NCBI GenBank assembly: GCA_028281925.1
Contig: JANQIX010000089.1
Location: forward strand, 1-64,000
From: Alphaproteobacteria bacterium
Lineage (GTDB): Bacteria > Pseudomonadota > Alphaproteobacteria > DSM-16000 > Inquilinaceae
Length of the DNA: 64,000 bases
Direction of reading: 5' to 3'
Positions 33,602-52,641 of this stretch are shown one piece after another. The notes beneath the pieces were generated by a model. It did no database searches. It saw only the letters and a list, made by a program, of their open reading frames with translations, and had not been told where the DNA came from. A program made the position numbers and the translations under genes. The number at the start of each line of letters is the position of its first letter. Within the stretch, counting starts at the first letter, position 1.

Positions 33602-34380
33602 CGGATCAAACCACAGTTCTGCATAGTCGCGACGGCGCGATCGCGACCGTCACGCTCAACCGCCCGGACAAGCTCAACGCCCTGACGCCTGAGATGGTCG
33701 GGCGGCTGCATGCCGTGCTGGACGAGATCGAGCAGGATGCCGACTGTCGCGTGGTTCTGCTGAGCTCCACCGGCGAGAAAGCATTCTGTGCAGGTGCCGA
33801 TGTGGATGCCTGGTCGGTCCTGCCTGCGGTCGACATGTGGCGTCGCTGGGGGCCGCTGGGCCATCGGCTTTTCGATCGGATCGCCCACCTGCGTCAGCCG
33901 ATCATCGCCGTGATCGGCGGTCTTGCGCTCGGCGGCGGGCTGGAGCTGGCACTGGCCTGCGATCTTCGGATCGCCGGCCCCGCGGCCAAGTTTGGCCTGC
34001 CGGAGGTCACCATCGCGACCTTGCCGGGTTGGGGTGGCACCCAGCGCCTGCCCGCCATCATCGGTCTCGGCCGCGCGAAGGAGCTGGTGCTGACCGGCAG
34101 GCGCATCGATGCCGCCACAGCCGAACAGTGGGGCTTGGTCAACGCCGTGGCGCAGGCGGGCGAACTGGAGGCCGAGGCGCGGGCGCTTGCGGCGCGGATT
34201 TCCAACAATGCACCCGTTTCCGTGCAAGCGGCCAAACAGCTCGTCGATGCCGGACAGGGGAACGGCACCGGCGCGGTGCTGGAGGGCCTGGCCGGGTCGG
34301 TGTGCCTGGCCACACAGGATGCACAGGAAGGGATCGCCGCGTTGAAAGACCGGCGTAGGCCCGAGTTCACAGGAGGGTGA
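33598..34380 (+). CDS. enoyl-CoA hydratase/isomerase (crotonase) family protein
   Basis: A 260-aa crotonase. The oxyanion-hole segment GLALGGGLELALACD carries the first active-site Glu, and FGLPEVTIATLPGWGGTQRL carries the second, so hydratase chemistry is plausible. Its start overlaps the CoA-transferase by 4 nt. It is probably the second step after CoA activation of the transported acid. A strong palindrome follows the stop. Confidence 0.92.
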   Translation: MTDQTTVLHSRDGAIATVTLNRPDKLNALTPEMVGRLHAVLDEIEQDADCRVVLLSSTGEKAFCAGADVDAWSVLPAVDMWRRWGPLGHRLFDRIAHLRQPIIAVIGGLALGGGLELALACDLRIAGPAAKFGLPEVTIATLPGWGGTQRLPAIIGLGRAKELVLTGRRIDAATAEQWGLVNAVAQAGELEAEARALAARISNNAPVSVQAAKQLVDAGQGNGTGAVLEGLAGSVCLATQDAQEGIAALKDRRRPEFTGG

Positions 34381-34391
34381 CGGGACTGTCT

Positions 34392-34415
34392 GGCCGGCGC
34401 CGATCGGCGCCGGCC
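34392..34415. terminator. 24-bp perfect palindrome between the crotonase and dctP genes
   Basis: Positions 34392-34415 form a perfect self-complementary GC-rich sequence (arms GGCCGGCGCCGA / TCGGCGCCGGCC). It is 11 bp after the crotonase stop and 76 bp before dctP, with no T-run behind it. It may terminate partially, protect an mRNA end, or bind protein. Confidence 0.4.
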
Positions 34416-34490
34416 TTGTGTGACCCGGCAGGTCGTGGGATCCGTCCGGGGAAGGAAGCGAAGAGTCCATCAAAAAGGGAGTTTCACGAG

Positions 34491-35477
34491 ATGTATCGAT
34501 CCACCACAGCGTTGTTTGCGGCCACTCTGGTCGCCGGTCTCGGCACCACGGCAAGTGCCGACACGGTTGAGCTGCACGGCGCCTCGCAGTTCGACGAGAA
34601 CCACTCCTACACCATCACCATGCGCAAGTTCGAAGAGCTGGTGACGGAGTGCTATGACGGCGATGTCGAGTTCGTCATGCACCTCAATTCCGAGCTCGGC
34701 GTCGAGCGCGACTTCTTCCAGATGATGAGCCAGGGCGTTTCCGTCGACTATGCCGTGGTCGCACCGTCGCACATGGCCAGCCTGTCGCCGCAGATGCCGC
34801 TGATGGACATGCCGTTCCTGTTCCGCGACCTCGACCACTGGAACGCGGTGCTGGACAGCGGCACGGCCTTCGAGCTGATCGAGGAAGAGGTCCTGGGTAA
34901 CGCCGATGTCCGCGTCATCGGCTATGGCGGCGGCGGCACCCGCAACCTGATCAGCAACCGCGAGATCACCGGCATGGATGAGCTTTCGGGCTTCCAGATG
35001 CGGGTGATGGGCGCACCGATCCAGGCGATGATCTTCGAAGCGATCACGGCCGAGCCTTCCGTCATCGCCTATAACGAAGTCTACAACGCCGTGCAGACCG
35101 GCGTGGTCGACGGCCTGGAGAACGAGGCTGCCGGCATCGAGCAGATGAAGTTCTACGAGGTCGCGCCCTACATCATCCTGACGCAGCACGCGATCACGGT
35201 GCGGCCGCTGATGTTCTCCGACCACACCTTCCAGCGTCTGCCGGAAGACCTGCAGGCCTGTGTGCTGGAGGCGGGACCGGAAGCCGCGCGGCACGGCCGC
35301 GAGATCGAGTCCGGTCAGGACGGCGAAAAGCTGACCATGATGGAAGATAATGGCTGGCTGCAGACCGTGCCGTTCGCAGATCGTGACCAGCTGCTGGAGC
35401 TGTCGATCCCGGTGCAGGACGAATTCGCGGCCGAACTCGGCGCCACCGAGACGCTTGAGCGTATCCGCGGGATGTAG
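34491..35477 (+). CDS. dctP: TRAP transporter substrate-binding protein
   Basis: A periplasmic receptor of 328 aa for an organic acid. A Sec signal peptide (MYRSTTALFAATLVAGLG, ending around TASA at 23) precedes a DctP fold. The mature part includes LGVERDFFQMMSQG and the conserved Arg of FQMRVMGAP that normally salt-bridges the ligand carboxylate. I chose ATG 34491 because GGGAG lies about 10 nt upstream and the signal peptide begins there. dctQ and dctM follow, separated by a strong hairpin that would raise receptor over permease expression. Confidence 0.93.
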   Translation: MYRSTTALFAATLVAGLGTTASADTVELHGASQFDENHSYTITMRKFEELVTECYDGDVEFVMHLNSELGVERDFFQMMSQGVSVDYAVVAPSHMASLSPQMPLMDMPFLFRDLDHWNAVLDSGTAFELIEEEVLGNADVRVIGYGGGGTRNLISNREITGMDELSGFQMRVMGAPIQAMIFEAITAEPSVIAYNEVYNAVQTGVVDGLENEAAGIEQMKFYEVAPYIILTQHAITVRPLMFSDHTFQRLPEDLQACVLEAGPEAARHGREIESGQDGEKLTMMEDNGWLQTVPFADRDQLLELSIPVQDEFAAELGATETLERIRGM

Positions 35478-35488
35478 TTGATGCCTTC

Positions 35489-35518
35489 GGGCCGGCCCCC
35501 ATCCTGGTGGGCCGGCCC
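35489..35518 (+). terminator. attenuating terminator between dctP and dctQ
   Basis: A perfect 10-bp stem GGGCCGGCCC repeated on both arms with a 10-nt loop, followed by GTTTTCTT. This is a good intrinsic-terminator shape placed 11 bp after the receptor stop. Partial read-through would set the excess of binding protein over membrane subunits. Confidence 0.6.
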
Positions 35519-35607
35519 GTTTTCTTGTGACCGCCCCGGCGGTCGATACCCTTGGCAGCGGCCGACCGACGGCCGGATCTCAAGCCGAGGGCGCGGGTGA
35601 CACGCCC

Positions 35608-36198
35608 ATGATCGTCTTCGAAAAACTGCTGGACGGCTATTACAAGGTCCTGCGCTTCGTCGTCGGCCTGATGATGGCCGCCCTCATCATCCCCGTCGCG
35701 ATGCAGGTGCTGTCCCGCCCGCTGGACATACCCTGGATCGGCGAGGTCCGCTTCGTGCCGCGCTATCTGTGGACCGAAGAGGTCGCGTTGTTCCTGTTCA
35801 TCTGGATCATCATGCTTGGGTCCGTGATCGCTGTGCGGGAGAAGACGCACTTCGTCGTGGACATCGTGCCTGAGCCCAAGAACATCCAGCTACGGGGCTT
35901 CATGCGCATGATCGTGCACGGCGCCATGGGCGTGATGGCGTACTTCTTTGCGGTGGACGGCTGGGACTACTTCCAGTTCGGCGGCCGCCAGCAATCCGAC
36001 TATCTGCGCTATGACCTTGGGTATCTGTACTTCACGGTGCCTCTGGCCGGCGCCAGCTGGGGTATCTTCCTGCTCGAGAACTTCGTGAAAGACATCCACA
36101 TGATCGTGCGCGGCAACGGCAGTGATGGCGAGGCCGACCGGGCAACCAGGCTGCCCGATGCAGGGCAGGACGATATCGGAAAGGAGGCGTCGCTATGA
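35608..36198 (+). CDS. dctQ: TRAP transporter small permease subunit
   Basis: The four-helix small subunit, 196 aa from ATG 35608. Hydrophobic segments lie near 15-35, 58-76, 94-112 and 134-152, and the typical LWTEEVALFLFIWIIMLGS lies in the second. A GTG at 35527 would add 27 polar residues but sits directly on the terminator's T-run, so I prefer 35608, although its ribosome site is weak. Its stop overlaps the dctM start by 4 nt. Confidence 0.88.
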   Translation: MIVFEKLLDGYYKVLRFVVGLMMAALIIPVAMQVLSRPLDIPWIGEVRFVPRYLWTEEVALFLFIWIIMLGSVIAVREKTHFVVDIVPEPKNIQLRGFMRMIVHGAMGVMAYFFAVDGWDYFQFGGRQQSDYLRYDLGYLYFTVPLAGASWGIFLLENFVKDIHMIVRGNGSDGEADRATRLPDAGQDDIGKEASL

Positions 36199-37496
36199 GT
36201 GCCGGCGACGCCGCGCTGCTGTTGTTCAGCACCTTCGGTATTCTTGTTGTCCTGCGCATCCCGGTTTCTTTCGCGCTCGGCATAGCGTGCCTGCCGGTCC
36301 TCTTGATCGACGACCGCATGCGCCCGTTCATCCTGCTGAACGAGTCCTTCACATCCTACTGGTCGTTCATCCTGCTGGCTGTGCCGTTCTTCCTGTTGGC
36401 CGCCAACCTGATGAACATGGCCGGCATTACCGATCGGCTGATCAACCTGTCAAAGGTAGCCGTGGGCCATATGCCGGGCGGGCTCGGTCATATCAATGTC
36501 GTCGTCAGCATGCTGTTCGCCGGCATCTCCGGCTCTTCCACGGCAGATGCGGCGGGCATTGGCAAGCTGTTGATCCCGGCCATGGTCAAGCAGGGATACG
36601 ATGTGCGGTTCTCCGTCGCGATTACCGCCTGCTCCTCTGTCATGGGCGTGATCATTCCGCCCAGCATCCTGATGGTGGTCTGGGGCGGGGTGATGTCGGT
36701 GTCGATTGGCGCCCTTTTCCTGGCGGGCGTCCTGCCCGGCATCCTCATCGCGGTCGCGATGATGACCACGGTCTATGCCTACGCGAAGGTGTACAAGTAC
36801 CCGATCTATCACCGATCCACGCTCAGCGAACTGCTGCCGGCCTTCACCAAGGCTATCCTGGCCCTGCTGACGCCGATCATCATCGTGGCCGGCATCGTCG
36901 GTGGTATCTTCACGCCGACGGAGAGTTCGGTCGTCGCGGTGATCTACACCCTCATCGTCGGCACGATGATCTACCGCACCGTCAACTTCCCGAAATTCGT
37001 ACATGCAGTGTACGAAACGGGCCGGTTCGCGGCGATCTCCCTGTTCTGCATTGGCACGGCATCGGCCTTCGGCTTCCTGCTCGCCTACTACAAGGTGCCG
37101 GAAGCGCTGGTCGATTGGATTGCCTCGATGGCACTCGGGCGTGTCGAAACCGGGTTCATGATCGCAATGGCCTTCCTCTTGATCGGCCTGTTCATCGACG
37201 CGATCCCGGCCATCATCATCCTGGGCACGATCCTGTTCCCGGTTGCGCAGAGCGTTGACATACATGCGGTGCACTTCGCCATCATCGGCGTGATCTCGCT
37301 GGCCTTCGGGCTGGTGACGCCACCCTATGGCCTGTGCCTGCTGATCGCCGCGTCGATCGGCGGCATCTCTGTGGTCAAGGCGCTGAAGGATGTGGGCATC
37401 GTGCTGTTGCCGATGCTGGCCATCCTGGTGCTGGTCGTCGTGCTGCCCGATGTCATTCTTTGGCTGCCGCGCGTGGTCATGCCCCAGTTCATGTAG
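36195..37496 (+). CDS. dctM: TRAP transporter large permease subunit
   Basis: A 433-aa membrane protein with about 12 hydrophobic segments that carries the Na+-coupled transport path. The family signatures AGISGSSTADAAGIGKLLIPAM (about 112-133) and VIIPPSILMVVWGGVMSVS are present, as is the late FGLVTPPYGLCLL. AGGAGG precedes the ATG. It follows dctQ with a 4-nt overlap, completing a DctPQM system in a catabolic operon. Confidence 0.94.
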   Translation: MSAGDAALLLFSTFGILVVLRIPVSFALGIACLPVLLIDDRMRPFILLNESFTSYWSFILLAVPFFLLAANLMNMAGITDRLINLSKVAVGHMPGGLGHINVVVSMLFAGISGSSTADAAGIGKLLIPAMVKQGYDVRFSVAITACSSVMGVIIPPSILMVVWGGVMSVSIGALFLAGVLPGILIAVAMMTTVYAYAKVYKYPIYHRSTLSELLPAFTKAILALLTPIIIVAGIVGGIFTPTESSVVAVIYTLIVGTMIYRTVNFPKFVHAVYETGRFAAISLFCIGTASAFGFLLAYYKVPEALVDWIASMALGRVETGFMIAMAFLLIGLFIDAIPAIIILGTILFPVAQSVDIHAVHFAIIGVISLAFGLVTPPYGLCLLIAASIGGISVVKALKDVGIVLLPMLAILVLVVVLPDVILWLPRVVMPQFM

Positions 37497-37524
37497 TCCT
37501 CGTTCGTAGCAGTAGGGATCGACA

Positions 37525-38286
37525 ATGTTCGATGATCTGAAGGGTCAGCGGGTACTGGTCACTGGCGCCAGCACCGGCATCGGTGCCGCCGTGGCCAAGG
37601 GCTTCGGCGCGGAAGGTGCACGGGTGGCCGTGCACTACAACGCCAGCGCCGACGCCGCCAACGCGGTGGCGGAGGCCGTTACAGCCCTGGGCGGTGAAGC
37701 CCATCTGATCGGCGGAGATCTGAGCCAGCGCGGCGCGGCCGAGCAGGTGGTGGCCGATGCCGCCGATGCGCTGGGCGGGCTGGACGTGCTGGTCAACAAC
37801 GCTGGAGCACTGGTACGCCGGGCGATGCTGGAAGAGTTGGACGACGATCTGATCGACCAGGTGTTCGACCTCAATGTCCGTCAGCTGACCCATGCCTGCC
37901 GTGCCGCCATCCCCCATCTGCGGCAGAGTGCCGGATGCATCATCAACACCGGCTCGATCGCCGGCCGACACGGCGGCGGCCCGGGTGCCGGCGTCTATGC
38001 CGCGGCGAAGGCCTGGGTACAGAGCGTCACCCGCAACTTGGCCAAAGAGTTTGCCGCAGAGGGCATTCGCGCGAATGCCGTGGCGCCGGGCGTGATCTAC
38101 ACCCCGTTCCACGAGCGCTTCAGCACCGCAGAACAGCTGGAGTCCATGCGCCAGACCATTCCCATGGCCCGGCTGGGCACGCCGGAGGAGTGCGTGGGCG
38201 CATACCTCTTCCTCGCGTCCAAGGCCGCCTCGGGCTACATCACCGGGCAGGTGATCGAGGTGAACGGCGGCCAGCTGATGCCGTAG
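37525..38286 (+). CDS. short-chain dehydrogenase/reductase
   Basis: An SDR of 253 aa. The cofactor loop is TGASTGIG (12-19), followed by NNAG, the catalytic NTGSIAG and YAAAK, and the C-terminal GYITGQVIEVNGGQLMP. It most resembles sugar or sugar-acid dehydrogenases such as gluconate 5-dehydrogenase or KduD-type reductases. It lies 28 bp after dctM and 7 bp before the enolase-superfamily gene, so all three probably work on the imported acid. Confidence 0.9.
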   Translation: MFDDLKGQRVLVTGASTGIGAAVAKGFGAEGARVAVHYNASADAANAVAEAVTALGGEAHLIGGDLSQRGAAEQVVADAADALGGLDVLVNNAGALVRRAMLEELDDDLIDQVFDLNVRQLTHACRAAIPHLRQSAGCIINTGSIAGRHGGGPGAGVYAAAKAWVQSVTRNLAKEFAAEGIRANAVAPGVIYTPFHERFSTAEQLESMRQTIPMARLGTPEECVGAYLFLASKAASGYITGQVIEVNGGQLMP

Positions 38287-38293
38287 GCGGTCG

Positions 38294-39439
38294 TTGCGTA
38301 TTACCGGCATCAGTCCGTTCGCCTGCGGCAGCCCGGTCACAGACTGGGTGTTCGTGCGGGTGGACACCGATCAGCCTGGCCTGGTCGGCTGGGGCGAGGC
38401 GTCGCTGCCCGGCAAGCATGCCGGTGTGTGCGGCGCCGTGGAGGATGTGAGCGGCCTGATCCTGGGCGCAGACCCCACCGATACGGAATGGTGCTGGCAG
38501 CGCATCTACCGGCACGCCTACTGGCGCGGCGGGCCGATCCAGACCAGTGCGCTCAGCGGCATCGACGTTGCGCTGTGGGACATCCGCGGCAAGCTGGCAG
38601 GCCAGCCGATCCACAAACTGCTGGGCGGGCCGGTCCGCGACCGCGTCCGCCTTTACGCCAATTGCGGCCTCGCGACCGAACCTGAGGTATTTCGCACCCG
38701 CGTGGGCGACGCCCTGGCGCTCGGCTATACGGCAGTGAAGATCTACCCGCTGCCCGCAACCGGCCCCGTGGCAGGCCCAGCCCTGCTGCGCCAGGTGGTG
38801 GCGTGCTGCGAAGCGGTGCGCGACGAGCTTGGCCCCGATCGCGATTTCGCCGTCGACTGCCACGGCCGCATGACCGCGGCCGTGGCAGTCGAGGTCGAAG
38901 CCGCCATCCGCCACACCCACCCCCTTTGGCTAGAGGAACCGGTGGCGCCGGAAAGCCCCCAAGCGCTAGCGCGCTGTGCGGAAAAGTTCACAATTCCGAT
39001 CGCGGTGGGGGAGCGCCTGTTCACACGCTGGGCCTTCCGCGACCTGCTTGAGCACCAATGGGCCGGCATCCTCCAGCCCGACGTTTCCAATGCCGGTGGC
39101 ATCACGGAGTTAGCGAAGATCGCCCAGCTCGCAGAGCTCTATGGCGTGGGCTTCGCCCCGCATAACCCCAATGGCCCGCTGCAGACCTGGGCCAGCCTGC
39201 ATCTTGCGGCCCACGCCCAGGCCTTCGCCATTCTGGAACACCGGCACGAGCCACCCCTGCAGGCCTTCATGCGCAAGATCGCCGACGCCATCGTGGAGGT
39301 GGAGGCTGACGGTCATGCGGCGCTGCCCGCGGCAGCAGGCCTCGGCACCGCGATCGACGAAGGCGCCTTGGCCGCCCACCCTCCGCAACGCTTCGTCCAT
39401 GAGAGCTTTCGTTCCGACGGCAGTATTGGTGACTGGTAG
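38294..39439 (+). CDS. mandelate racemase / muconate lactonizing enzyme family sugar-acid dehydratase
   Basis: A 381-aa enolase-superfamily protein, near the galactonate/mannonate dehydratase branch. The barrel shows AVKIYP, the ligand motif DCHGR, EEPVAPE, GERLFTR and HNPNGP, where the His is expected to act as acid/base. It starts at TTG 38294, the position that gives the family's usual MRITGI opening. It would dehydrate a hexonate or uronate-derived acid to a 2-keto-3-deoxy acid. Substrate unknown. Confidence 0.88.
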   Translation: MRITGISPFACGSPVTDWVFVRVDTDQPGLVGWGEASLPGKHAGVCGAVEDVSGLILGADPTDTEWCWQRIYRHAYWRGGPIQTSALSGIDVALWDIRGKLAGQPIHKLLGGPVRDRVRLYANCGLATEPEVFRTRVGDALALGYTAVKIYPLPATGPVAGPALLRQVVACCEAVRDELGPDRDFAVDCHGRMTAAVAVEVEAAIRHTHPLWLEEPVAPESPQALARCAEKFTIPIAVGERLFTRWAFRDLLEHQWAGILQPDVSNAGGITELAKIAQLAELYGVGFAPHNPNGPLQTWASLHLAAHAQAFAILEHRHEPPLQAFMRKIADAIVEVEADGHAALPAAAGLGTAIDEGALAAHPPQRFVHESFRSDGSIGDW

Positions 39440-40317: not shown

Positions 40318-40758
40318 TCATCCTACCACCTTCTCTCGGCGCGCCCGGCCTCCAGCATGGTATGTCAGCGCCATGGCGATGCAGTGCGCCAAGGCCTCGC
40401 GAGCAATCTCATCCTCCGCAGCGAACACGATCGCCCGGTTTCCCTCGTAGCGGAACCGGTCCGGATAGATCTCCCGGAAGGTTGAGATCAGCGAGGTCTG
40501 GCAGTGGACGTAGAGGGCATATCGCGGTGGCCCCGCCTTCAGCGCATCGATCCTAACCGTGGTTCCGGTTCCGCGTCGTTCAGGCAGATAGGCGGGCTGC
40601 CCCCACTTCAGCGTCTCCACCAACGGCCCCACGCCCTCGGTCCGTGCTGCCGTCTCGAAGATGAGTGCCCGCAACGCCAGAAGGCGGTCCCGCACAGCGT
40701 CTGGATACTCTTGGAACACGGCCGCAACGCGCGCGTCCCTGAATTGGTGCCCGCTCAT
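40318..40758 (-). CDS. DUF1801 domain protein
   Basis: A 146-aa cytoplasmic protein with the DUF1801 landmarks ETLKWGQPAYLP and YALYVHCQTSLISTFRE. Function of the family is unknown. Its ATG overlaps the hutH stop by 4 nt, so it is translated together with hutH at the end of the operon. It is convergent with the HD-GYP gene. Confidence 0.85.
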   Translation of the reverse strand: MSGHQFRDARVAAVFQEYPDAVRDRLLALRALIFETAARTEGVGPLVETLKWGQPAYLPERRGTGTTVRIDALKAGPPRYALYVHCQTSLISTFREIYPDRFRYEGNRAIVFAAEDEIAREALAHCIAMALTYHAGGRARREKVVG

Positions 40759-42251
40759 TCTGCCGCGACGATGGCATGCGCGGCGGCAATATCCTCCGCC
40801 ATCACGCGGTCACGCACCATGGTCGGTACGCGGTCGCGCAGGGTGACGTAGAGGGGGCGGAGGGCCGGCGCCGGTTCGATACCGCGCAGGTCGAGGGCCT
40901 GAGCCGCCAGCAGCAATTCGATCGCAACAATCCGCTGTGCCGTCTCCACGGCAAAGGCTGCCCGTCTCGCGGCAATCGGCGCCATGGGCACATGGTCCTC
41001 GGTATTGGCGCAGGTGGGCACCGACTGAATGGCGGCAGGCACGGATCGGCATCTCAGTTCCGCAATCAGCGCAGCGGCCGTGTACTGGGCGATCATGAAG
41101 CCGGAGTTCTCGCCCGGTGCCGCATCAGGGTGGATCAGGAAGGGTGGCAGGCCGCCGTTCAGATTGGCATCCACCAGCCGGGCTGACCGGCGCTCGCTGA
41201 TCACGGCCAGCGAGGTCAGCGAATTGGCGAGATAGTCCAGCAGCTCTGCCGCGCGCTGGCCGTGAAAGTTACCGGAATTCGACGTCACCCAGCCGTCGGC
41301 CAAGCCGAAAATCGGATTGTCGTTGGCGGCGTTGATCTCGATCTCCAGTCCCTGAGCCACATGCGCGACAGCATCCCTGGTGGCCCCCAGGACCTGTGGA
41401 ATGCAGCGCAGACTCAAGCCGTCGCGCAGGCGGCTGGGTCTGGGCGGGCCGATCGACACGCTGCCGTCGGTCAGCGCCCGCAGCCGTGCCGACGTGGTGA
41501 TCTGGCCGGGATGAGGCTTGGCCAGCGCCGTACGCGCATCGAAGCTGTCGTCGAGCGCGCCCAGCGCCTCGAGGCTCATGGCCGCCACCGCCTCCGCGGT
41601 TTCCACCAGCTGTTGCGCGTCGTGCACCGCCAGGCAGCCGATCCCGGTCGTCTGTTCCGTGCCGTTGATCAGGGCGATGCCATCACGACCGGCGATCTCC
41701 GGCAACGGAATGCCGGCTTCACGCATAGCATCGGCGCCTGCACGCCAGTCGCTGCCGGGCAGATGCGCACGCCCCTCCCCGATCAGCGGCAGAGCCATAT
41801 GGGCCAACGGCGCGAGATCACCGCAGGCCCCAACCGAGCCGAACTCCGGCACGCATGGCACGACGCCGGCATTCAGCATCGCGACCAGTGCGTTCAGCGT
41901 TGCGGCCGTCACACCCGTTACGCCGGTGGCCAGCACATTGGCGCGGATGGCCATCATGGCGCGGACCGCATCGTCCGCCATCGCGGCGCCCACGCCGGCG
42001 GCGTGGCTGCGCAAAAGGTTCTTCTGCAGTGATACGACCGCCTGCGGCGGCACGGCGCGGCTGTCCAGCGCCCCGAAGCCGGTCGTGATCCCGTAGATGG
42101 GCGTGCCGTCAGCGATCAGGCTCGCCAGCAGGCGCTCGCCCTCGGCGACCCGGCGCTGAGCCTCATCCTCCAACGCGACCGTCGCGCGCCGCCGGGCCAC
42201 GGCCACGACGTCTCCAATGCTCAGGCTGCGGCCAGTAAGCACGACGGTCAT
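40755..42251 (-). CDS. hutH: histidine ammonia-lyase with Cys in the MIO triad
   Basis: It deaminates L-histidine to urocanate. The 498-aa protein aligns without shifts to the Pseudomonas putida enzyme at key points: Y53, H83, and the prosthetic-group triad at 142-144. The triad normally reads Ala-Ser-Gly; here it reads Ala-Cys-Gly (FGSVGACGDLAPLAH), and codon 143 is TGC at 41825-41823. Other family blocks are intact, including NDNPIF and the GNFHGQ region. hutU lies 6 bp upstream, which strongly supports the histidine assignment. The change may still allow MIO formation. Confidence 0.92.
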   Translation of the reverse strand: MTVVLTGRSLSIGDVVAVARRRATVALEDEAQRRVAEGERLLASLIADGTPIYGITTGFGALDSRAVPPQAVVSLQKNLLRSHAAGVGAAMADDAVRAMMAIRANVLATGVTGVTAATLNALVAMLNAGVVPCVPEFGSVGACGDLAPLAHMALPLIGEGRAHLPGSDWRAGADAMREAGIPLPEIAGRDGIALINGTEQTTGIGCLAVHDAQQLVETAEAVAAMSLEALGALDDSFDARTALAKPHPGQITTSARLRALTDGSVSIGPPRPSRLRDGLSLRCIPQVLGATRDAVAHVAQGLEIEINAANDNPIFGLADGWVTSNSGNFHGQRAAELLDYLANSLTSLAVISERRSARLVDANLNGGLPPFLIHPDAAPGENSGFMIAQYTAAALIAELRCRSVPAAIQSVPTCANTEDHVPMAPIAARRAAFAVETAQRIVAIELLLAAQALDLRGIEPAPALRPLYVTLRDRVPTMVRDRVMAEDIAAAHAIVAAE

Positions 42252-42257
42252 GGGGCT

Positions 42258-43949
42258 TCAGTCTTCCAGCGACGGCAGGTTCAGGTGATGGCGTCTGGCG
42301 CAGTCGATGGCCAGCTCATAGCCCGCATCGGCATGGCGCATCACGCCCGTGGCCGGGTCGTTCCACAGCACCCGCTCGATGCGCTTAGCCGCGGCCTCTG
42401 TGCCGTCGCAGACGATCACCATGCCCGAATGCTGCGAGAAGCCCATGCCGACCCCACCGCCATGGTGCAGCGACACCCAGGTCGCCCCGCTGGCGCAGTT
42501 CAACAGCGCGTTCAAGAGCGGCCAGTCCGACACGGCGTCGGAGCCATCGCGCATGGCCTCGGTCTCGCGGTTCGGGCTGGCGACGGAACCGCTGTCCAGA
42601 TGGTCGCGGCCGATGACGATCGGCGCATGCACTTCACCCGTGCGCACCATGTCGTTGAAGGCCAGCCCCAGCCGGTGGCGCTGGCCGAGACCGACCCAGC
42701 AGATGCGCGCCGGCAGCCCCTGGAAGTGGATACGGTCGCGCGCCATGTCCAGCCAGGTGTGCAGATGCGGGTCGTCCGGGATCAGGCGCTTGACCACCTC
42801 GTCGGTGCGGTAGATGTCCTCCGGCTCACCGCTCAGCGCTGCCCAGCGGAACGGGCCGATGCCGCGGCAGAACAGCGGCCGGATGTAGGCCGGCACGAAA
42901 CCGGGGAAGTCGAAGGCATCATCCACGCCTTCGTCCTTGGCCATCTGGCGGATGTTGTTGCCGTAATCCAGCGTCGGCACGCCCGCATGGTGCCAGTCCA
43001 GCATGGCCCGGACATGCAGGGCCATGGACCGCTTGGCCGCCGCTTCGACCGCCTTCGGGTCGGTCTCGCGCCGCTCCGCCCACTCCGCCAGCGTCCAGCC
43101 GGCGGGCAGATAGCCGTTGACCGGGTCGTGGGCCGAGGTCTGGTCGGTCACCACGTCCGGCCGCACACCGCGCCGCACCAGCTCCGGAAACACATCGGCC
43201 GCGTTGCCCAACAGGCCGATGGACACCGCCCGCCGCTCCGCCCTGGCTTCCGAGATCATCTCCAGCGCCAGGTCCAGATTGTCGGTGCTGTCGTCCAGAT
43301 AGCCGGTGCGCAGGCGCATCTCGATCCGGCTCGGCTGGCACTCCACGGCCAGCATCGAGGCGCCGGCCATAGTGGCAGCCAGAGGTTGGGCCCCGCCCAT
43401 GCCGCCTAGCCCGGCCGTCAGGATCCACCGGCCCGCCAGGTCGCCGCCGTAGTGCTGCCGTCCCACTTCCACGAAGGTTTCGTACGTCCCCTGCACGATC
43501 CCCTGGCTGCCGATATAGATCCACGAGCCGGCGGTCATCTGCCCGTACATCATCAACCCGGCGCGATCGAGCGCGTGGAAATGGTCCCAGTCGGCCCAGT
43601 GGGGCACGAGGTTTGAATTGGCAATGAGTACGCGCGGCGCGTCTTCATGCGTGCGGAACACCCCGACCGGCTTGCCCGACTGGACCAGCAGGGTCTCGTT
43701 GCCTTCCAGCGACCGAAGGGCGTCGCAGATGCGGTCGAAGCTCTGCCAGTCGCGCGCTGCCCGGCCGATGCCGCCATAGACCACCAGCTCTTGCGGCCGC
43801 TCGGCCACGTCCGGGTCCAGGTTGTTCATCAGCATGCGCAGCGGCGCCTCGGTCAGCCAGCTCTTGGCACTCAGCTCCCGCCCCTGAGGCGCGCGGATCA
43901 GGCGGCTGTTGTCAAAGCGGCTGGTTCGCTGGGGAGCGTCGTCAGTCAT
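42258..43949 (-). CDS. hutU: urocanate hydratase
   Basis: It hydrates urocanate to imidazolone propionate using tightly bound NAD+. The 563-aa protein has the NAD site [17 protein letters not shown], the active-site region [11 protein letters not shown] with the conserved Cys, and the long signature [13 protein letters not shown] followed by [17 protein letters not shown]. It lies 6 bp before hutH and 25 bp after the FadH-like gene on one strand. hutI, hutG/F and a HutC regulator are absent from the window, so the later steps must be encoded elsewhere. Confidence 0.96.
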
Positions 43950-43974: not shown

Positions 43975-46005
43975 TCAGAGCGCCAGGGCAAGGCGGGTTC
44001 CTTCCTCGATGGCACGCTCGGCGTCCAGCTCCGCGGCCAGACGCGCACCGCCGATCGCCGTCGCAGCCACGCCAGCCGCGGCAAGGTCCGGGGCCAGCTC
44101 AGCCAGAGGGTCCTGCCCGGCGCAGATAACGATCGTATCGGCCGGAATGTGCCGCCCCTCGCCGGCTACGGTGATGTGGATGCCGCGATCGTCGATGCGA
44201 TCGTATGCGACGCCGGCGAACTGGGCCACGCGGTTCCGCGCGAGGATCAGCCGGTGGATCCAGCCGGTCGACCGGCCGAGCGTGCGCCCGAATCCGCCGG
44301 GAGACCGCTTCAGCATGGTGATCTCGTGATGCGGTGGGTCGTCCGAGGCGCCGCCCGGGTCCAGGCCGCCGGCCACCTCGCCATTCGTAGCAATGCCCCA
44401 GTGATGCGCGAACGCATCAGCCTCCACATGGCTGCGCAGGCTGCGCTCCAGCAGAAACAGCGCCACATCGAAGCCGATGCCGCCGGCGCCGATGATCACG
44501 ACGCGACGGCCCGCCTGCACGCGGCCGGTCAGTACGTCGGCATAGGTGGCCACCATGGTGTGTTCGATGCCGGGGATGTCGGGGCGCCGCGGTGCCACGC
44601 CGGATGCCATGACGACATGCGCGAAACGGCCGCCCGCCAAGTCATCGGTCGTCGCCCGCTGGCCGAGGCGGAGTTCGACGCCCGCTCGCTGCAGGCGATC
44701 GGCGAAATAGGCAACGCTCTCGCCGAATTCCTGCTTTCCCGGCACGCGCTTGGCCAAGTTGAACTGGCCGCCCAACTCCGAAGCGGCCTCGAACAGCGTC
44801 ACTTGGTGGCCCCGTTCAGCGGCAACGACGGCGGCGGCCAGTCCGGCTGGCCCGCCGCCGACCACAGCGATGGCCCGCGGCTGCTCTACCGGAGTCACCC
44901 GCAGCTCCTCTTCCCGGCAGGCGTGCGGATTGACCAGGCAGGAGGCCGGCTCATCGATGAAATAGTGGTCCAGGCAGGCTTGGTTACAGGCGATGCAGAT
45001 GTTGATGCCGCGCCGATCGCCGGACCGCGCCTTTGCCGCGAAGGCCCCGTCGGCCAGGAACGGCCGCGCCATGGAGATCATGTCGGCATGGCCCGCCGCC
45101 AGGATCGCCTCGCCGGCCTCCGGCGTGTTGATGCGGTTGCTGGCCGCCACGGGAATGGCGACGGCCTCTGTGATCCGCCGGCTCGCCCAGGCGAACCCGC
45201 CGCGCGGCACGGCCTGCGCAATCGTCGGCACGCGGGCTTCGTGCCAGCCGATGCCGCTTGTCAGCATGTCCGCGCCCGCCGCTTCCACTGCACGAGCGAG
45301 CGCCACCGTCTCATCGGCCGTCAGGCCGCCTTCCACGAGATCGAGCGTGGAGATGCGGAAGATCACCAAGAAATCCGGGCCCACGGCCCGCCGCACTGCC
45401 TGCACCGTCTCCACAGCGAAGCGCAGCCGGTGATCCAGGCTGCCGCCCCAGTCGTCGTCCCGCTGGTTGGTGCGCGGGCACAGAAACTGGGTGATCAGGT
45501 AGCCTTCGGAGCCCATGACCTCGACGCCGTCATAGCCGGCTTCGCGCGCAAGCCCGGCAGCCGTTGCGAAGTCACCGATGGTGCGCGTGATGTTGGCCTC
45601 GGTCATCGCCCGCGGCATCTCGCGGTTGATGGGCGAGCGGATGGCGCTCGGCGCGACAATGGCCTCGTGATAGCCATAGCGGCCGCTGTGCAGGATCTGC
45701 AGGACGATCCGCCCGCCCGCCTCGTGCACGGCCTGAGGGATTGGCCGGTGCCACGCGGCATCCGCAGCGCTTGCCAGCATGGCCGGCTCATCCTTCAGCC
45801 GCCCTTCGAAGTTCGGCGAGACGCCGCCGGTGATGATCAGTCCGGCTTCGGCTGCAGCCCGTTCGGCGTAGAAGGCGGCCAGCCGCGGCGCGCCGTCGGC
45901 CCTCGCCTCCAGCCCCGTATGCATGGATCCCATGACCAGCCGGTTCGGCAGCTGAACCGATCCCACCATGATCGGCTGAAACAGATGCGGATAGGCGGCG
46001 GTCAT
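43975..46005 (-). CDS. fadH: NADH:flavin oxidoreductase, 2,4-dienoyl-CoA reductase-like
   Basis: A 676-aa three-domain protein: FMN barrel (1-330), 4Fe-4S site, and an FAD/NAD(P) disulfide-reductase-like domain. It follows Escherichia coli FadH closely by eye: MGSMHTGLE, LQILHSGRYGYH, REAGYDGVEVMGSEGYL and TGIGWHEAR-type segments. The iron-sulfur ligands lie in CIACNQACLD...SCLVN, and FAD binding is at VVGGGPAGLAAAV. FadH reduces 2,4-dienoyl-CoA in oxidation of unsaturated fatty acids. Its place in a hut/sugar-acid operon suggests another substrate is possible. Confidence 0.88.
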   Translation of the reverse strand: MTAAYPHLFQPIMVGSVQLPNRLVMGSMHTGLEARADGAPRLAAFYAERAAAEAGLIITGGVSPNFEGRLKDEPAMLASAADAAWHRPIPQAVHEAGGRIVLQILHSGRYGYHEAIVAPSAIRSPINREMPRAMTEANITRTIGDFATAAGLAREAGYDGVEVMGSEGYLITQFLCPRTNQRDDDWGGSLDHRLRFAVETVQAVRRAVGPDFLVIFRISTLDLVEGGLTADETVALARAVEAAGADMLTSGIGWHEARVPTIAQAVPRGGFAWASRRITEAVAIPVAASNRINTPEAGEAILAAGHADMISMARPFLADGAFAAKARSGDRRGINICIACNQACLDHYFIDEPASCLVNPHACREEELRVTPVEQPRAIAVVGGGPAGLAAAVVAAERGHQVTLFEAASELGGQFNLAKRVPGKQEFGESVAYFADRLQRAGVELRLGQRATTDDLAGGRFAHVVMASGVAPRRPDIPGIEHTMVATYADVLTGRVQAGRRVVIIGAGGIGFDVALFLLERSLRSHVEADAFAHHWGIATNGEVAGGLDPGGASDDPPHHEITMLKRSPGGFGRTLGRSTGWIHRLILARNRVAQFAGVAYDRIDDRGIHITVAGEGRHIPADTIVICAGQDPLAELAPDLAAAGVAATAIGGARLAAELDAERAIEEGTRLALAL

Positions 46006-46022: not shown

Positions 46023-47756
<1,734 letters not shown>

Positions 47757-47835
47757 GGATGCGTTCCCTGCCCGGGACCGGTTCGCCCCGGTTTCGCGGA
47801 TTTTCCGCAATACGGCCCTTGCAGCCACCGGCCTG

Positions 47836-49245
47836 TCAAGTCAACGCGGCATGCGCCGCCACTATGGCAGCCAACGCCGTGGCGAGGGCCAGCGGTGCAT
47901 AGACCCCGTTCCAACCCCAACTCACGATCCGCGAAGGCCGTTCCGCCAGCCGCGCCAGCAGCAGCACCGAGATGCCGAACGGCGACACGACGACCGTGGT
48001 CGCCCAAGCCGCGCCCAGCCCAACGGCGATCGCGGCGGCCAGGGAAGGATCGGGCTGCGCCTGCTGCAGGATGGCGCCGACTATGGTGACGCTGATGATC
48101 GGGTTGATGGCGATCTGATGCGCTGTGATCACGAAGATCGCCGGCACCGCAATTGCGGCTGCGGTTGGCCAGGCGCCGAGGTTCAGCAGCCCCTCCAGCC
48201 CCAGCGCCGGCAGTAAGGCGGCGATCGCCGCACCGATGAAGGCGGCTGAGGCGATCACGACGATCTCGGGGCTGGCCGCCGGAAACTGATCGCGCACGAC
48301 ATCGCGCAGACGGACACTGGTCTGGCGGACGCGGGATTCGTCGCTCTTGCGCTGCTGCAGCAGGATCCAGCCGAGCCAGAACATCGGCCCCACCGCCACG
48401 ACCGCTTCGATCAGCCGCAAGTCGAACAGCAGTTTCAGCGCCGTGACCAGCAAAAGCAGCAGGCCCACCGGCACCATCAGCAAGAGGACGGCCCGTTTTT
48501 CGCCAACCGTCAGCGGTGCCCTTTCAAGGGCCAGGCCGCCGTCGCCTCCCTCAAGGCTATCCAGCAGCCATCCGACAGCGGTGATCAGCATAGAGGCTGC
48601 AAAGCCGAACGCGGCCGTGTCCGTCCACAGCACGCCTGGGACCGAGGTCACGATCAGTGCCTGGGCGATGGTCGTCGGCGCCCAGACGGTCGACGCCCCG
48701 AATCCCCTAAGCGCCGCACTCAACGACCGTCGCTCGCGGCTCAGGGCCTCGCGCCGGTTCCGGTCCGCCTCGCCAATGCCGACGCGGACCACCGCGCTCA
48801 GCAGGCTCAAAGCGCCCAGGTTCAACAGGATCGTCAACAGGTGGCTGCCGAACGCCAAGGCCAGATACCGGCGGCCCGGCGGCTGGTGAACGATGATGCG
48901 GCCGGCCTGCGTCACCGTGGGCGACGTCACCGCAGCATCGCGGACGAGGCCAAGCACCAAGACCAACGTGCCAAGGAACGCCGCCTGGCTGAGACCCTGT
49001 ACCATCACCCGGCCGGCGTCTTCGGTGACGGCGACAAGGGTCGCGGCAAGACCGATGGATGCGATCAGCAGAACGCCACCCACCCGGCCGGCGCGGCGCC
49101 ATGCCAGCGCAAGAAAGCCGGCGCAGGCCAGGCATCCGGCCGTCGTGGCCCACGGCCCCGCATCGAGCAGACGCGCGAAGGTCGGGACCATCATGGCCAC
49201 CAGCATTGCCGTCAGCGCGCGCCGATGCCACCGATGGACCGCCAC
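47836..49245 (-). CDS. polytopic membrane transporter (ion-transporter superfamily-like)
   Basis: A 469-aa protein with about 12 hydrophobic segments in two halves. Both contain re-entrant-like stretches: FGASTVWAPTTIAQALI and HQIAINPIISVTIVGAIL. This arrangement resembles carboxylate transporters of the IT superfamily, but I cannot name a family. I set the start at GTG 49245, preceded by GGGGACG. An in-frame extension to 49497 would run through the operator region and is not believed. It begins the minus-strand operon leading to the dehydratase, fadH-like, hutU and hutH genes and may import their substrate. Confidence 0.75.
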   Translation of the reverse strand: MAVHRWHRRALTAMLVAMMVPTFARLLDAGPWATTAGCLACAGFLALAWRRAGRVGGVLLIASIGLAATLVAVTEDAGRVMVQGLSQAAFLGTLVLVLGLVRDAAVTSPTVTQAGRIIVHQPPGRRYLALAFGSHLLTILLNLGALSLLSAVVRVGIGEADRNRREALSRERRSLSAALRGFGASTVWAPTTIAQALIVTSVPGVLWTDTAAFGFAASMLITAVGWLLDSLEGGDGGLALERAPLTVGEKRAVLLLMVPVGLLLLLVTALKLLFDLRLIEAVVAVGPMFWLGWILLQQRKSDESRVRQTSVRLRDVVRDQFPAASPEIVVIASAAFIGAAIAALLPALGLEGLLNLGAWPTAAAIAVPAIFVITAHQIAINPIISVTIVGAILQQAQPDPSLAAAIAVGLGAAWATTVVVSPFGISVLLLARLAERPSRIVSWGWNGVYAPLALATALAAIVAAHAALT

Positions 49246-49417
49246 CTTCGTCCCCAGATTATGCGGGCCCAAGCTTACCGGGTGACCCGCCCGGTCTTGG
49301 CCGCCCTCACCTTGGCGCCGGAATGCTACCGCATGTTCTCGCAGCGGCGCCAAACACACAGGTCCGACGGATGATTGGCAGAGACACCGCCGCTCCGGCC
49401 CGGTATGATCGCGACCG

Positions 49418-49451
49418 CTGTATACAGAAGAGTGGCCATTGCTGTATACAG
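49418..49451. promoter_or_regulatory. pair of identical palindromic operators
   Basis: The perfect 10-bp palindrome CTGTATACAG occurs at 49418-49427 and again at 49442-49451, 24 bp apart centre to centre, i.e. on nearly the same face of the helix. It lies in the 296-bp region between the divergent transporter (49245) and aldolase (49542) genes. TGTATACA-type sites are typical of GntR-family (FCD) regulators of sugar-acid genes. No such regulator is encoded in the window. Confidence 0.6.
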
Positions 49452-49541
49452 TGTCATCGTCGCCATTGCATGCAGGATGTGGGACCCGCCCAGGCAACCC
49501 GCACCAAACGGTCTCAATGACGGCGCCTTAGGGAGGACGAC

Positions 49542-50477
49542 ATGAAGACCAACCCGGTCACCGCAGCCGATCTTCGCAGCTCCGTCTTGGCGGTGCCGCC
49601 GCTTGCCCGCCACGGGGACTTGTCGCTCAACCCCGAAGCCAACCGCCGGATGATCCGCCATCTCGAGAGCGGTGGCGTGACCACGCTAATGTACGGCGGC
49701 AACGCAAATCTATACAACATTGCATTAAAAGAATACGATACCGCGTTGTCATTACTTGAAGATTCGGCGGCAGCTGAGACCTGGGTTATCCCCTCGGCCG
49801 GGCCCGATTTCGGCCGGCTGACCGACCAGGCCGATGTCCTGAAAGATCGCGCCTTTCCCACGGTGATGGTGCTGCCGCTCGCCTTCCCGGCGACGCCGGA
49901 CGGCGCTGCAAAGGCGATCCGCCTGTTTGCCGAGCGCATCGCCCGCAAGGTGATCCTCTATATGAAGACCGAGGCCTATCTCTCGGTCGATCACGTGCGT
50001 GCCCTGGTCGATGATGGCCTTGTGGCCGGCATCAAATACGCCGTAGTGCGCGAGGACCCGACCGTGGACCCGCTGCTGGAACGGCTGGTGCAGGCCGTCG
50101 ATCCATCGCTGATCGTCAGCGGCATCGGCGAGCGGCCGGCGATCGTCCACTTCACCCGGTTCGGCCTGGGTGCCTTCACCTCCGGCTCTGTGTGCGTCGC
50201 CCCGGCCGCGTCGACCCGCCTGCTGCGCGCGCTCGCATCGGGCGATGTCGAAACGGCCGAGACAATCCGCGGGCACTTCCTGCCCTTAGAGGATCTGCGC
50301 GACGGGTTGAGTCCGATCCGCGTGCTTCACGATGCCGTCACCCTTGCCGGCATTGCGGATATGGGCCCCATGCTGCCGATGCTCAGTAATCTGGAGGAGC
50401 GGCATCGGCACGATGTGGCAGCGGCGGCGCGCGCCCTTCTCGCTTACAATGGCACGATGATGACGGCGGCTGCTTGA
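49542..50477 (+). CDS. dihydrodipicolinate synthase family aldolase
   Basis: A 311-aa class I aldolase/lyase of the DapA (NAL) family. The Schiff-base Lys is K165 in AGIKYAV and the assisting Tyr is Y140 in ILYMK. The usual GTTGE substrate loop is replaced by GGNANLYN (52-59), which argues against true DapA and for a 2-keto-3-deoxy-acid aldolase or dehydratase. GGGAGG lies 7 nt before the ATG. It starts the plus-strand operon with an Ldh-family dehydrogenase and TAXI-TRAP genes, divergent from the sugar-acid dehydratase operon. Confidence 0.88.
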   Translation: MKTNPVTAADLRSSVLAVPPLARHGDLSLNPEANRRMIRHLESGGVTTLMYGGNANLYNIALKEYDTALSLLEDSAAAETWVIPSAGPDFGRLTDQADVLKDRAFPTVMVLPLAFPATPDGAAKAIRLFAERIARKVILYMKTEAYLSVDHVRALVDDGLVAGIKYAVVREDPTVDPLLERLVQAVDPSLIVSGIGERPAIVHFTRFGLGAFTSGSVCVAPAASTRLLRALASGDVETAETIRGHFLPLEDLRDGLSPIRVLHDAVTLAGIADMGPMLPMLSNLEERHRHDVAAAARALLAYNGTMMTAAA

Positions 50478-50495
50478 CCGGGGGCGTTGGGTCCC

Positions 50496-51563
50496 ATGGG
50501 CATTCCCGCGATACACCTGCGGTCGCAGATCGAGAGCGTGCTGACGGCCTGGGGGTTTGGGGCCGCAGATGTCGCCGCCACCGCCGAAGCGCTGGTCTGG
50601 GCCGATCTCCGCGCCATCGACAGTCACGGCATCGCGCTGCTGCTGCTCTATGAGCAGTTCCTGAGCCAGGGCTCGCTGATCGTTCGCCCCGAGGTTGGCG
50701 TTGTGCGCGACCGGGCTGCCACCGCCGTAGTCGATGGCGGCGGCGGGCTGGGGCATCGACCGGCGTGCCTGGCTGCGGATCTGGCCACAGAGAAGGCGCA
50801 GGCGTTCGGTCTCGGCGCCGTTGCCGTGCGCAACAGCAATCATTTCGGCGCCGCCGGCTTCTACGCCGCCGGCATGGCCGAGAAGGGCGTTCTGGGCATC
50901 GTCACCTCGTCCGTCCACCTGCCCGCCATCGTGCCGACCTTCGGCACGGTGCCGATGCTGGGCACCAATCCGATTGCTCTCGCTGCGCCGACGTCCCGCA
51001 ACCGTCCCTTCGTGCTGGACATGGCCACCAGCACGGCCGCCATAGGCAAGCTGCGCCTGGCCAAGCGCGCCGGCCGGCAGCTTCCGGTCGGCTGGGCGCT
51101 CGACACCCAGGGCCGGCCGGAGACCGACCCTGACGCCGCGCTCGTCGTCAAGCGGCTGACACCGCTGGGCGGAAGCCGGGAACTCGGCGGCCATAAGGGC
51201 TACGGCCTCGCCACGCTGGTGGAGATTCTCTCGACCACGCTCTCGGGCGCCGCCTTCGCGCCGCTTCGGCCAAAGGACAACACGCAGCTGGATGTGGGCC
51301 ATTTCCTGATGGCCATCGACCCCGACGCCTTCCGCGAGACCGGCGACTTCGAAGACGATCTGGACGCTCTGATCGATGCCATGCGCGCGAGCCCCCCGGC
51401 CGAAACCGGACAGCCGGTTATGGTCGCCGGCGACCCGGAACACGCGGCGCATGACGAACGATCGGTCCATGGAATTCCGCTCGGCGACAGCCTCCTGAAC
51501 GACCTGAAGGCTCTCGCCAAGCGGTGCGGCGCCCCCTTCCACCTGGCGGAGGGGGTGCCATAA
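50496..51563 (+). CDS. Ldh family (malate/L-lactate dehydrogenase-type) oxidoreductase
   Basis: A 355-aa NAD(P)-dependent 2-hydroxyacid or imino-acid dehydrogenase of the LdhL/YlbC/DpkA fold, unrelated to Rossmann lactate dehydrogenases. It has DLRAIDSHGIALLLL, NSNHFGAAGFYA with the conserved His, FVLDMATSTAAIGKL and GGHKGYGLATLVEILS. It begins at ATG 50496, 19 bp after the aldolase stop. It could oxidise or reduce the keto acid produced by its neighbours. Confidence 0.9.
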   Translation: MGIPAIHLRSQIESVLTAWGFGAADVAATAEALVWADLRAIDSHGIALLLLYEQFLSQGSLIVRPEVGVVRDRAATAVVDGGGGLGHRPACLAADLATEKAQAFGLGAVAVRNSNHFGAAGFYAAGMAEKGVLGIVTSSVHLPAIVPTFGTVPMLGTNPIALAAPTSRNRPFVLDMATSTAAIGKLRLAKRAGRQLPVGWALDTQGRPETDPDAALVVKRLTPLGGSRELGGHKGYGLATLVEILSTTLSGAAFAPLRPKDNTQLDVGHFLMAIDPDAFRETGDFEDDLDALIDAMRASPPAETGQPVMVAGDPEHAAHDERSVHGIPLGDSLLNDLKALAKRCGAPFHLAEGVP

Positions 51564-51630
51564 CGCCGAACCACAAGCCCCCGGCGTTCGACTCGTAACG
51601 CAGAAGAGAAAGCACAACACGGAGGAAACC

Positions 51631-52581
51631 ATGACGCATCGGACACGCTATACCCTGGCCGGCCTTCTGCTCGCCGGCACGACCCTGACCGCCGGCACGG
51701 CGGGTGCACAGTCGCTGACGCTGATGACGGGCCCGCAGGGCGGCTCGTGGTACCCGCTGGGCGGTGCTATCCAGGCGATCGTCGAAGCCAATATCGACGG
51801 CGTCAGCATGCAAGTGATGCCGGGCGGCGGTGTGGCCAATGTGCAGGGCGTGCAGGGCGGCCGCAGCGACCTGGGCTTCGCCAACTCCGTCTCCACCGTC
51901 GATGCCATTAATGGCCGCGACCCGTTCGAAGAAGCGGCGGACAATGTGTGCAATGTCGCCACGCTCTATCCTCAGTACTTCCAGGTCGTGACCACGACGG
52001 ACACCGGCATCGAGACCGTAGCGGATATCGGCGGCCGCTCGCTCGCCACCCAGCCGCGCGGCAATACCGGTGAGCAGATCACCCGGCAGATGCTGCAGGT
52101 GATCGACCAGACGCCGGACAGCATGGCCGACTATCACCAGGTTTCGTACACCGATGCGGTGTCGTTGATGAAGGATGGCAATGCCGAGGTGTTCACGCTG
52201 GGCACCACGGTGCCGGCCGGTGCCATCATGGACCTCGCCAGCGCGCGCGACATCCACCTGATCGGCATGGACGACACCACGTTCGATGCGATGCGGGAAC
52301 TGAATCCCGGCTTCAACATGCTCACGATCCCCGGGGGCAGCTATCCCGGCGTCGATGACGACGTGAACGTGATCGGCTATGCCACCCACGTGATCGCTCG
52401 CTGCGATCTGGATGCCGATCTGGTGCACAACATCCTCGACAACGTCTATGCCAACATTGCCGATCTGCAGGCGATCGCACGGGCGATGGAGGGTATCACG
52501 CCGGCCGACATGGCCGTCGAGACGGGCGTGCCGCTGCACCCGGGTGCGGAGCGCTGGTACACCGAGCAAGGCGCCCTTTAG
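51631..52581 (+). CDS. TAXI family TRAP transporter solute-binding protein
   Basis: A periplasmic receptor of 316 aa. The signal peptide MTHRTRYTLAGLLLAGTTL ends at about residue 27 (AGAQ), and the mature protein opens with TLMTGPQGGSWYPLGGAIQ, the defining TAXI motif. AAGAATVNG-type details are replaced by GRSDLGFANS. GGAGG precedes the ATG. TAXI receptors usually bind glutamate-like or other organic acids. The fused permease follows after a hairpin. Confidence 0.93.
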   Translation: MTHRTRYTLAGLLLAGTTLTAGTAGAQSLTLMTGPQGGSWYPLGGAIQAIVEANIDGVSMQVMPGGGVANVQGVQGGRSDLGFANSVSTVDAINGRDPFEEAADNVCNVATLYPQYFQVVTTTDTGIETVADIGGRSLATQPRGNTGEQITRQMLQVIDQTPDSMADYHQVSYTDAVSLMKDGNAEVFTLGTTVPAGAIMDLASARDIHLIGMDDTTFDAMRELNPGFNMLTIPGGSYPGVDDDVNVIGYATHVIARCDLDADLVHNILDNVYANIADLQAIARAMEGITPADMAVETGVPLHPGAERWYTEQGAL

Positions 52582-52590
52582 TCGCAACCC

Positions 52591-52620
52591 TGCCGGGGGG
52601 CTTCGTGCGGCCCCCCGGCA
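52591..52620 (+). terminator. attenuating hairpin between TAXI receptor and permease
   Basis: A perfect 10-bp stem (TGCCGGGGGG / CCCCCCGGCA) with a 10-nt loop, 9 bp after the receptor stop. A moderately T-rich sequence follows. It occupies the same position as the dctP/dctQ hairpin and probably favours receptor expression. Confidence 0.5.
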
Positions 52621-52641
52621 ACCGTTCGTTCTTTCGCAAGC

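Follow-up and report, generated by a model that had tools for sequence, protein, structure and literature searches.

Among the minus-strand genes of the window, a 64,000-nucleotide stretch of an alphaproteobacterial contig, is an intact open reading frame without internal stops (positions 40755..42251) that encodes a 498-aa, Cys-type paralogue of histidine ammonia-lyase (HAL; PF00221). It starts 6 bp downstream of hutU (42258..43949, minus strand), the only urocanate hydratase gene in the genome, whose product scores 965.5 bits against TIGR01228; that an intact lyase gene adjoins a genuine hutU had been predicted from the sequence and is borne out. Where the PF00221 superfamily has the MIO-forming Ala-Ser-Gly triad, the window lyase has Ala-Cys-Gly at residues 142-144 (41820..41828, minus strand): positions 41817-41831 read GGG GCC TGC GGT GAT on the minus strand, that is, G-A-C-G-D, with the TGC Cys codon at 41825-41823. 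The PF00221 profile matches the protein at 534.2 bits over positions 1-465 of 466, and NCBIfam PRK09367 at 540.5, above its cut-off of 524. Against TIGR01225, the hutH equivalog, it scores 522.9 bits, below the cut-off of 539.15; four homologues tested score 500.6, 508.4, 539.5 and 550.1, two of them below the same cut-off, and the canonical HutH of the same genome scores 649.2.

Other genes crowd the pair. A small DUF1801 protein is encoded at 40318..40758 (minus strand), its start overlapping the lyase end by 4 bp, and this gene is retained in the same-genus genome G009. Ahead of hutU, on the same strand and in the same gene run, lie genes for an OYE-type flavin/Fe-S oxidoreductase (43975..46005, minus strand) and an IlvD-type dehydratase, with gaps of 25 and 17 bp; neither was seen beside the lyase outside the genus, and we therefore leave them out of the system. 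Farther out, the genes at 34377-39439 and 46023-54519 resemble sugar-acid or carboxylate catabolism: they encode DctPQM and TAXI TRAP transporters, a galactonate-dehydratase-like enolase, an IlvD-type dehydratase and a DHDPS-type aldolase.

A Second Paralogue beside hutU

If the window lyase adjoins the only hutU, is it the ordinary HutH of this genome? It is not: the protein is a divergent second paralogue. The ordinary enzyme, a canonical Ser-type HutH fused to N-formylglutamate deformylase (HutG) in a single 790-aa frame, is encoded on another contig (C107; L163:5969-8341, minus strand), and the single imidazolonepropionase gene also lies on another contig. The original prediction, which took the window lyase for no more than the HAL half of an intact hut pair, is not supported, given this separate Ser-type HutH-HutG and three replacements in the window lyase that the prediction had overlooked, Q277R, Y280L and Q413T (P. 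putida numbering). G009 and G015 seem to share the HutH-HutG fusion, to judge from their open frames of 812 and 805 aa (L017 and L015).

The same duality marks all eight genomes of the Cys-type subfamily, each of which has exactly one Ser-type HutH and one hutU (G198 has an additional PF00221 fragment). The Cys gene adjoins hutU in seven of the eight; in the remaining one, G010, hutU is split over two other contigs. hutC lies near the Cys gene in four, and in G329 the lyase belongs to a full hut operon, in the order hutI-hutH(ASG)-hutG-hutU-lyase(ACG)-TRAP transporter, where hutF lies upstream of the run and hutC downstream of it.

Conservation of the Cys Codon

Ala-Cys-Gly is kept in seven further genomes whose proteins are 66-94% identical to the window lyase (G009, 94%; G010 and UBA7691, 70%; G385, G217, G329 and G198, 66-68%), and the Cys143 codon is TGC in seven of the eight members and TGT in UBA7691. 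A sequencing or assembly error at codon 143 can be dismissed as vanishingly improbable because eight genomes, assembled separately, carry Cys through two synonymous codons; the predicted natural Ala-Cys-Gly is real. With pairwise dN/dS values of 0.095-0.148, the subfamily is under purifying selection. The next alphaproteobacterial relatives below 66% identity are Ser-type HutH enzymes at no more than 44%, and no relative above 60% identity was found in plasmid records. When the middle codon was left free in a scan of 190 alphaproteobacterial genomes, 60 triads were recovered, 58 with Ser and 2 with Cys (counted by eye); both Cys triads belong to the window’s subfamily, and no other middle residue occurs among the 60.

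The Active-Site Pocket

The subfamily retains Y53, H83, N195, R283, F329 and E414 in the alignment, and Tyr53, His83 and Cys143 line up position for position with the P. putida enzyme, as predicted. Mutations at the Geobacillus HAL equivalents of the essential residues Y53, H83, N195 and E414 (Y52, H82, N194 and E411) abolished activity, while Q274, R280 and F325 mutants retained reduced activity, with Q274N lowering efficiency, and Y277F, the equivalent of a Y280 change, could not be expressed (PMC11432326). The window lyase thus has all the activity-abolishing positions intact, judging by the alignment, and two positions that matter altered: Q277 and Y280, present in every Ser-type HutH examined, are Arg and Leu in all eight members, and Q413 is Thr, or Ser in one member. 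The segment R276-D-G-L279-S-L-R282 (41406..41426, minus strand; P. putida 277-283) carries both Q277R and Y280L and keeps R283. Elsewhere in the alignment Leu280 is limited to nine MIO-less relatives, one of them T. denticola ergothionase, and no Ser-type HutH or other Ala-Cys-Gly group has it; within the set examined, only this subfamily pairs an intact Cys triad with Leu280. Given these three replacements, and a Leu280 otherwise confined to MIO-less proteins, plain HAL activity is not assured.

The predicted monomer matches the HAL, TAM and TAL folds at Z scores of 42-44. It is silent on MIO because pLDDT is below 50 at the triad and at 274-278 and because a monomer lacks the tetramer that completes the active site. 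The window lyase shares with histidine ammonia-lyases (P. putida 1b8f and T. acidophilum 7tqr, Z 42-44) its length, the hutU neighbour, the residues listed above and the GxVGAxGDLAP loop; it differs from them in having Cys143 for Ser, R277 for Gln, L280 for Tyr and T413 for Gln, in being only about 36-44% identical, and in coexisting with a Ser-type HutH.

Ala-Cys-Gly Enzymes across Phyla

MIO formation begins when the Gly144 nitrogen adds to the carbonyl of Ala142; dehydration of the ring follows, and elimination of the residue 143 side chain comes last. In this last step water leaves from Ser and H2S would leave from Cys, the two residues able to eliminate to an unsubstituted methylidene. 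An engineered P. putida HAL, Ser143Cys, is reportedly active, H2S being lost as its MIO forms; it is said to have the same triad as the window lyase, but it is a laboratory mutant with an otherwise canonical pocket, whereas the window lyase has further pocket changes. In published accounts the middle Ser of the triad is “strictly conserved” (PMC3903478) and variation is allowed at the first residue only (PMC9002059); we found no paper on natural Ala-Cys-Gly or Ser143Cys in the open-licence library searched.

How unusual is the Cys triad? Natural Ala-Cys-Gly is no rarity: when the named genome collection was scanned for the pattern, at least 114 natural loci in over 20 phyla emerged, all the matches listed lying in frame within PF00221 homologues, so that the replacement is present in well over a hundred species. 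A search of viral contigs gave no Ala-Cys-Gly match. The matches listed are of three kinds: (i) the window’s subfamily (eight entries); (ii) a large clade of at least 88 loci (L023-L136) from well over 20 phyla, many candidate phyla and archaea among them, in which NFQG and EDFV replace NFHG and EDHV; and (iii) at least 11 enzymes scattered among other lineages, several of which depart from the canonical HAL pocket only at Cys143. In the large clade hutU is the sole recurrent neighbour found (7 of 88 pieces), the other frequent matches in that neighbour search being the lyase itself or antisense frames. Ala-Cys-Gly members do form clades, but a single clade is rejected (p-AU 0.0004, from a quick tree in which long branches are present). 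The Aliidiomarina taiwanensis enzyme adjoins P. putida HutH in this tree, within the Ser-type enzymes.

In several genomes the Cys-type enzyme is the sole PF00221 member: A. taiwanensis, a Woeseiaceae, two Bdellovibrionota, an Elusimicrobia, an archaeal and a Planctomycetota genome. Each has hutU on the same piece; some are incomplete MAGs, but A. taiwanensis is a cultured isolate whose hutU and hutH (L042:2115-3683) follow a HutC-like frame in a single run, that frame being cut by the piece edge. Four enzymes (L042, L081, L120 and L082) combine an otherwise canonical pocket with being the only HAL of their genome and adjoining hutU. That a sole HAL beside hutU has Cys speaks for natural MIO formation from Ala-Cys-Gly. 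Having several origins and spanning many phyla, these enzymes are natural evidence that Cys takes the part of Ser in the MIO triad, probably releasing H2S, in contrast to descriptions of MIO enzymes as requiring an invariant Ala-Ser-Gly (PMC3903478). Wild enzymes such as the sole HAL of A. taiwanensis also bring the final step in forming MIO within reach of testing. Paralogue pairs also occur beyond the window’s subfamily: Ser-type and Cys-type lyase genes share one short contig piece at L050, L087 and L102 (Cloacimonadota and Delongbacteria).

Proposed Mechanism and Substrate

The window lyase is probably a functional, hut-linked second MIO-type lyase. In this protein Ala142-Cys143-Gly144 would cyclise as Ala-Ser-Gly does, and the final step would lose H2S from Cys143, not water, to leave the same methylidene-imidazolone; the lyase would then remove the alpha-amine of histidine, or of a closely related derivative, by elimination, and the resulting urocanate (or near analogue) would be handed to HutU, the product of the adjacent gene. 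Judged from sequence, functional equivalence of the two triads is plausible and MIO formation in the window lyase is probable. The sole-HAL cases and the restriction of the middle codon to Ser or Cys in the 60 alphaproteobacterial triads support MIO from Cys in nature, and within the subfamily Cys is present in eight of eight members under low dN/dS (0.095-0.148). Also in favour of a working MIO-type lyase are hutU adjoining in seven of eight genomes, the full hut run in G329, the independent canonical-pocket enzymes that are the only HAL beside hutU, and the retention of all residues essential in Geobacillus HAL (PMC11432326). Set against it are the changes at Y280 and Q277, whose Geobacillus counterparts gave an unexpressed and a less efficient protein, respectively (PMC11432326); the TIGR01225 cut-off missed by the window lyase, as by two of the four homologues tested; the Ser-type HutH already present in every host genome; and the inability of sequence, or of a model with pLDDT below 50 at the triad and 274-278, to reveal MIO.

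What would a second lyase act on in a cell that already has a HutH? A urocanate-type product is likely since HutU is the neighbour. The retained imidazole- and carboxylate-side residues favour histidine as the substrate, to which we give an even chance; Leu280 and Arg277 speak for a specialised one, as does the Ser-type HutH present in every genome, and an N-substituted or otherwise modified histidine is a possible but less probable substrate, with anything else improbable. Tyrosine aminomutase and lyase (S. globisporus 2ohy and R. sphaeroides 2o6y) share the fold (Z 42-44) and have a phenol-binding context, whereas hut linkage and the kept H83 and E414, on the imidazole side, point to histidine for the window lyase.

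The alternative that survives best, though still tentative, is an ordinary second HAL isozyme for L-histidine, a redundant copy in which Cys143 and the remaining replacements would have arisen by near-neutral drift. The imidazole-, carboxylate- and base-type residues are all kept, and many canonical-pocket Ala-Cys-Gly enzymes are sole HALs, as this explanation would have it. But a clade on a long stem (SH-aLRT 100, stem 1.21) has all of Q277R, Y280L and Q413T/S fixed, and dN/dS is low; joint pocket changes, long stem and low dN/dS argue for specialisation rather than drift.

Specialisation could take the form of a modified-histidine lyase, acting on N-methylated histidine or hercynine and yielding urocanate and a methylated amine, the urocanate for HutU; Leu280 would give room near the amine, as in ergothionase-like enzymes. 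This is rather unlikely as a specific proposal, even though Y280L is common to the subfamily and all nine MIO-less relatives examined and absent from the Ser-type HutH enzymes and other Ala-Cys-Gly groups aligned, a Ser-type HutH is present in eight of eight genomes, and the product-side partner is a true urocanase rather than a thiourocanate hydratase. Ergothionase itself (T. denticola 6s7j) shares the superfamily fold (Z 41.5) and Leu280 with the window lyase but is 26% identical, lacks the MIO triad and is partnered by a thiourocanate hydratase; the window lyase keeps the triad loop intact apart from Cys and, among solved relatives, scores 354.9 bits to HAL versus 187.6 to ergothionase. Thiourocanate-hydratase models fall under their cut-offs on the window hutU (NF058530, 698.1 versus 930), so an ergothionase/thiourocanate pair, which the juxtaposed HAL and urocanase genes had brought to mind, is rejected on triad, scores and hutU model. 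EgtD (PF10017, the hercynine synthase family) is found in two of eight genomes; there is therefore no link to hercynine, and EgtD is uninformative on hercynine synthesis.

A catalytically dead or regulatory paralogue, in which Cys143 remains a free thiol and no MIO forms, would fit the loss of Y280 and Q277 and the Ser-type HutH in the same genome, but it is improbable: all other catalytic residues are kept under purifying selection, and nowhere does Ala or another non-eliminating residue take the place of Cys.

The window lyase also serves as a warning against annotating each hut-linked homologue as HutH, given that its pocket differs and a normal HutH coexists with it. A bolder combined proposal, that repeated replacement of the MIO Ser by Cys has made MIO enzymes with Ala-Cys-Gly a broad class, hitherto overlooked, and that the subfamily pocket (Arg277, Leu280) has been retooled to release urocanate from modified histidine, is unlikely as a whole; if true, such release would be a branch of histidine catabolism without prior description.

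In the MIO-less PF00221 relatives L019, L020, L021, L022, L190, L192 and L193 the triad is shortened (GA-AD, GE-AD) and Leu280 is present, and L020 is the closest of these relatives to ergothionase (266 bits). In L191, a PF00221 protein from Maledivibacter halophilus, whose genome has five PF00221 members, the triad region aligns as GSVGYIG, of neither the Ser nor the Cys type.
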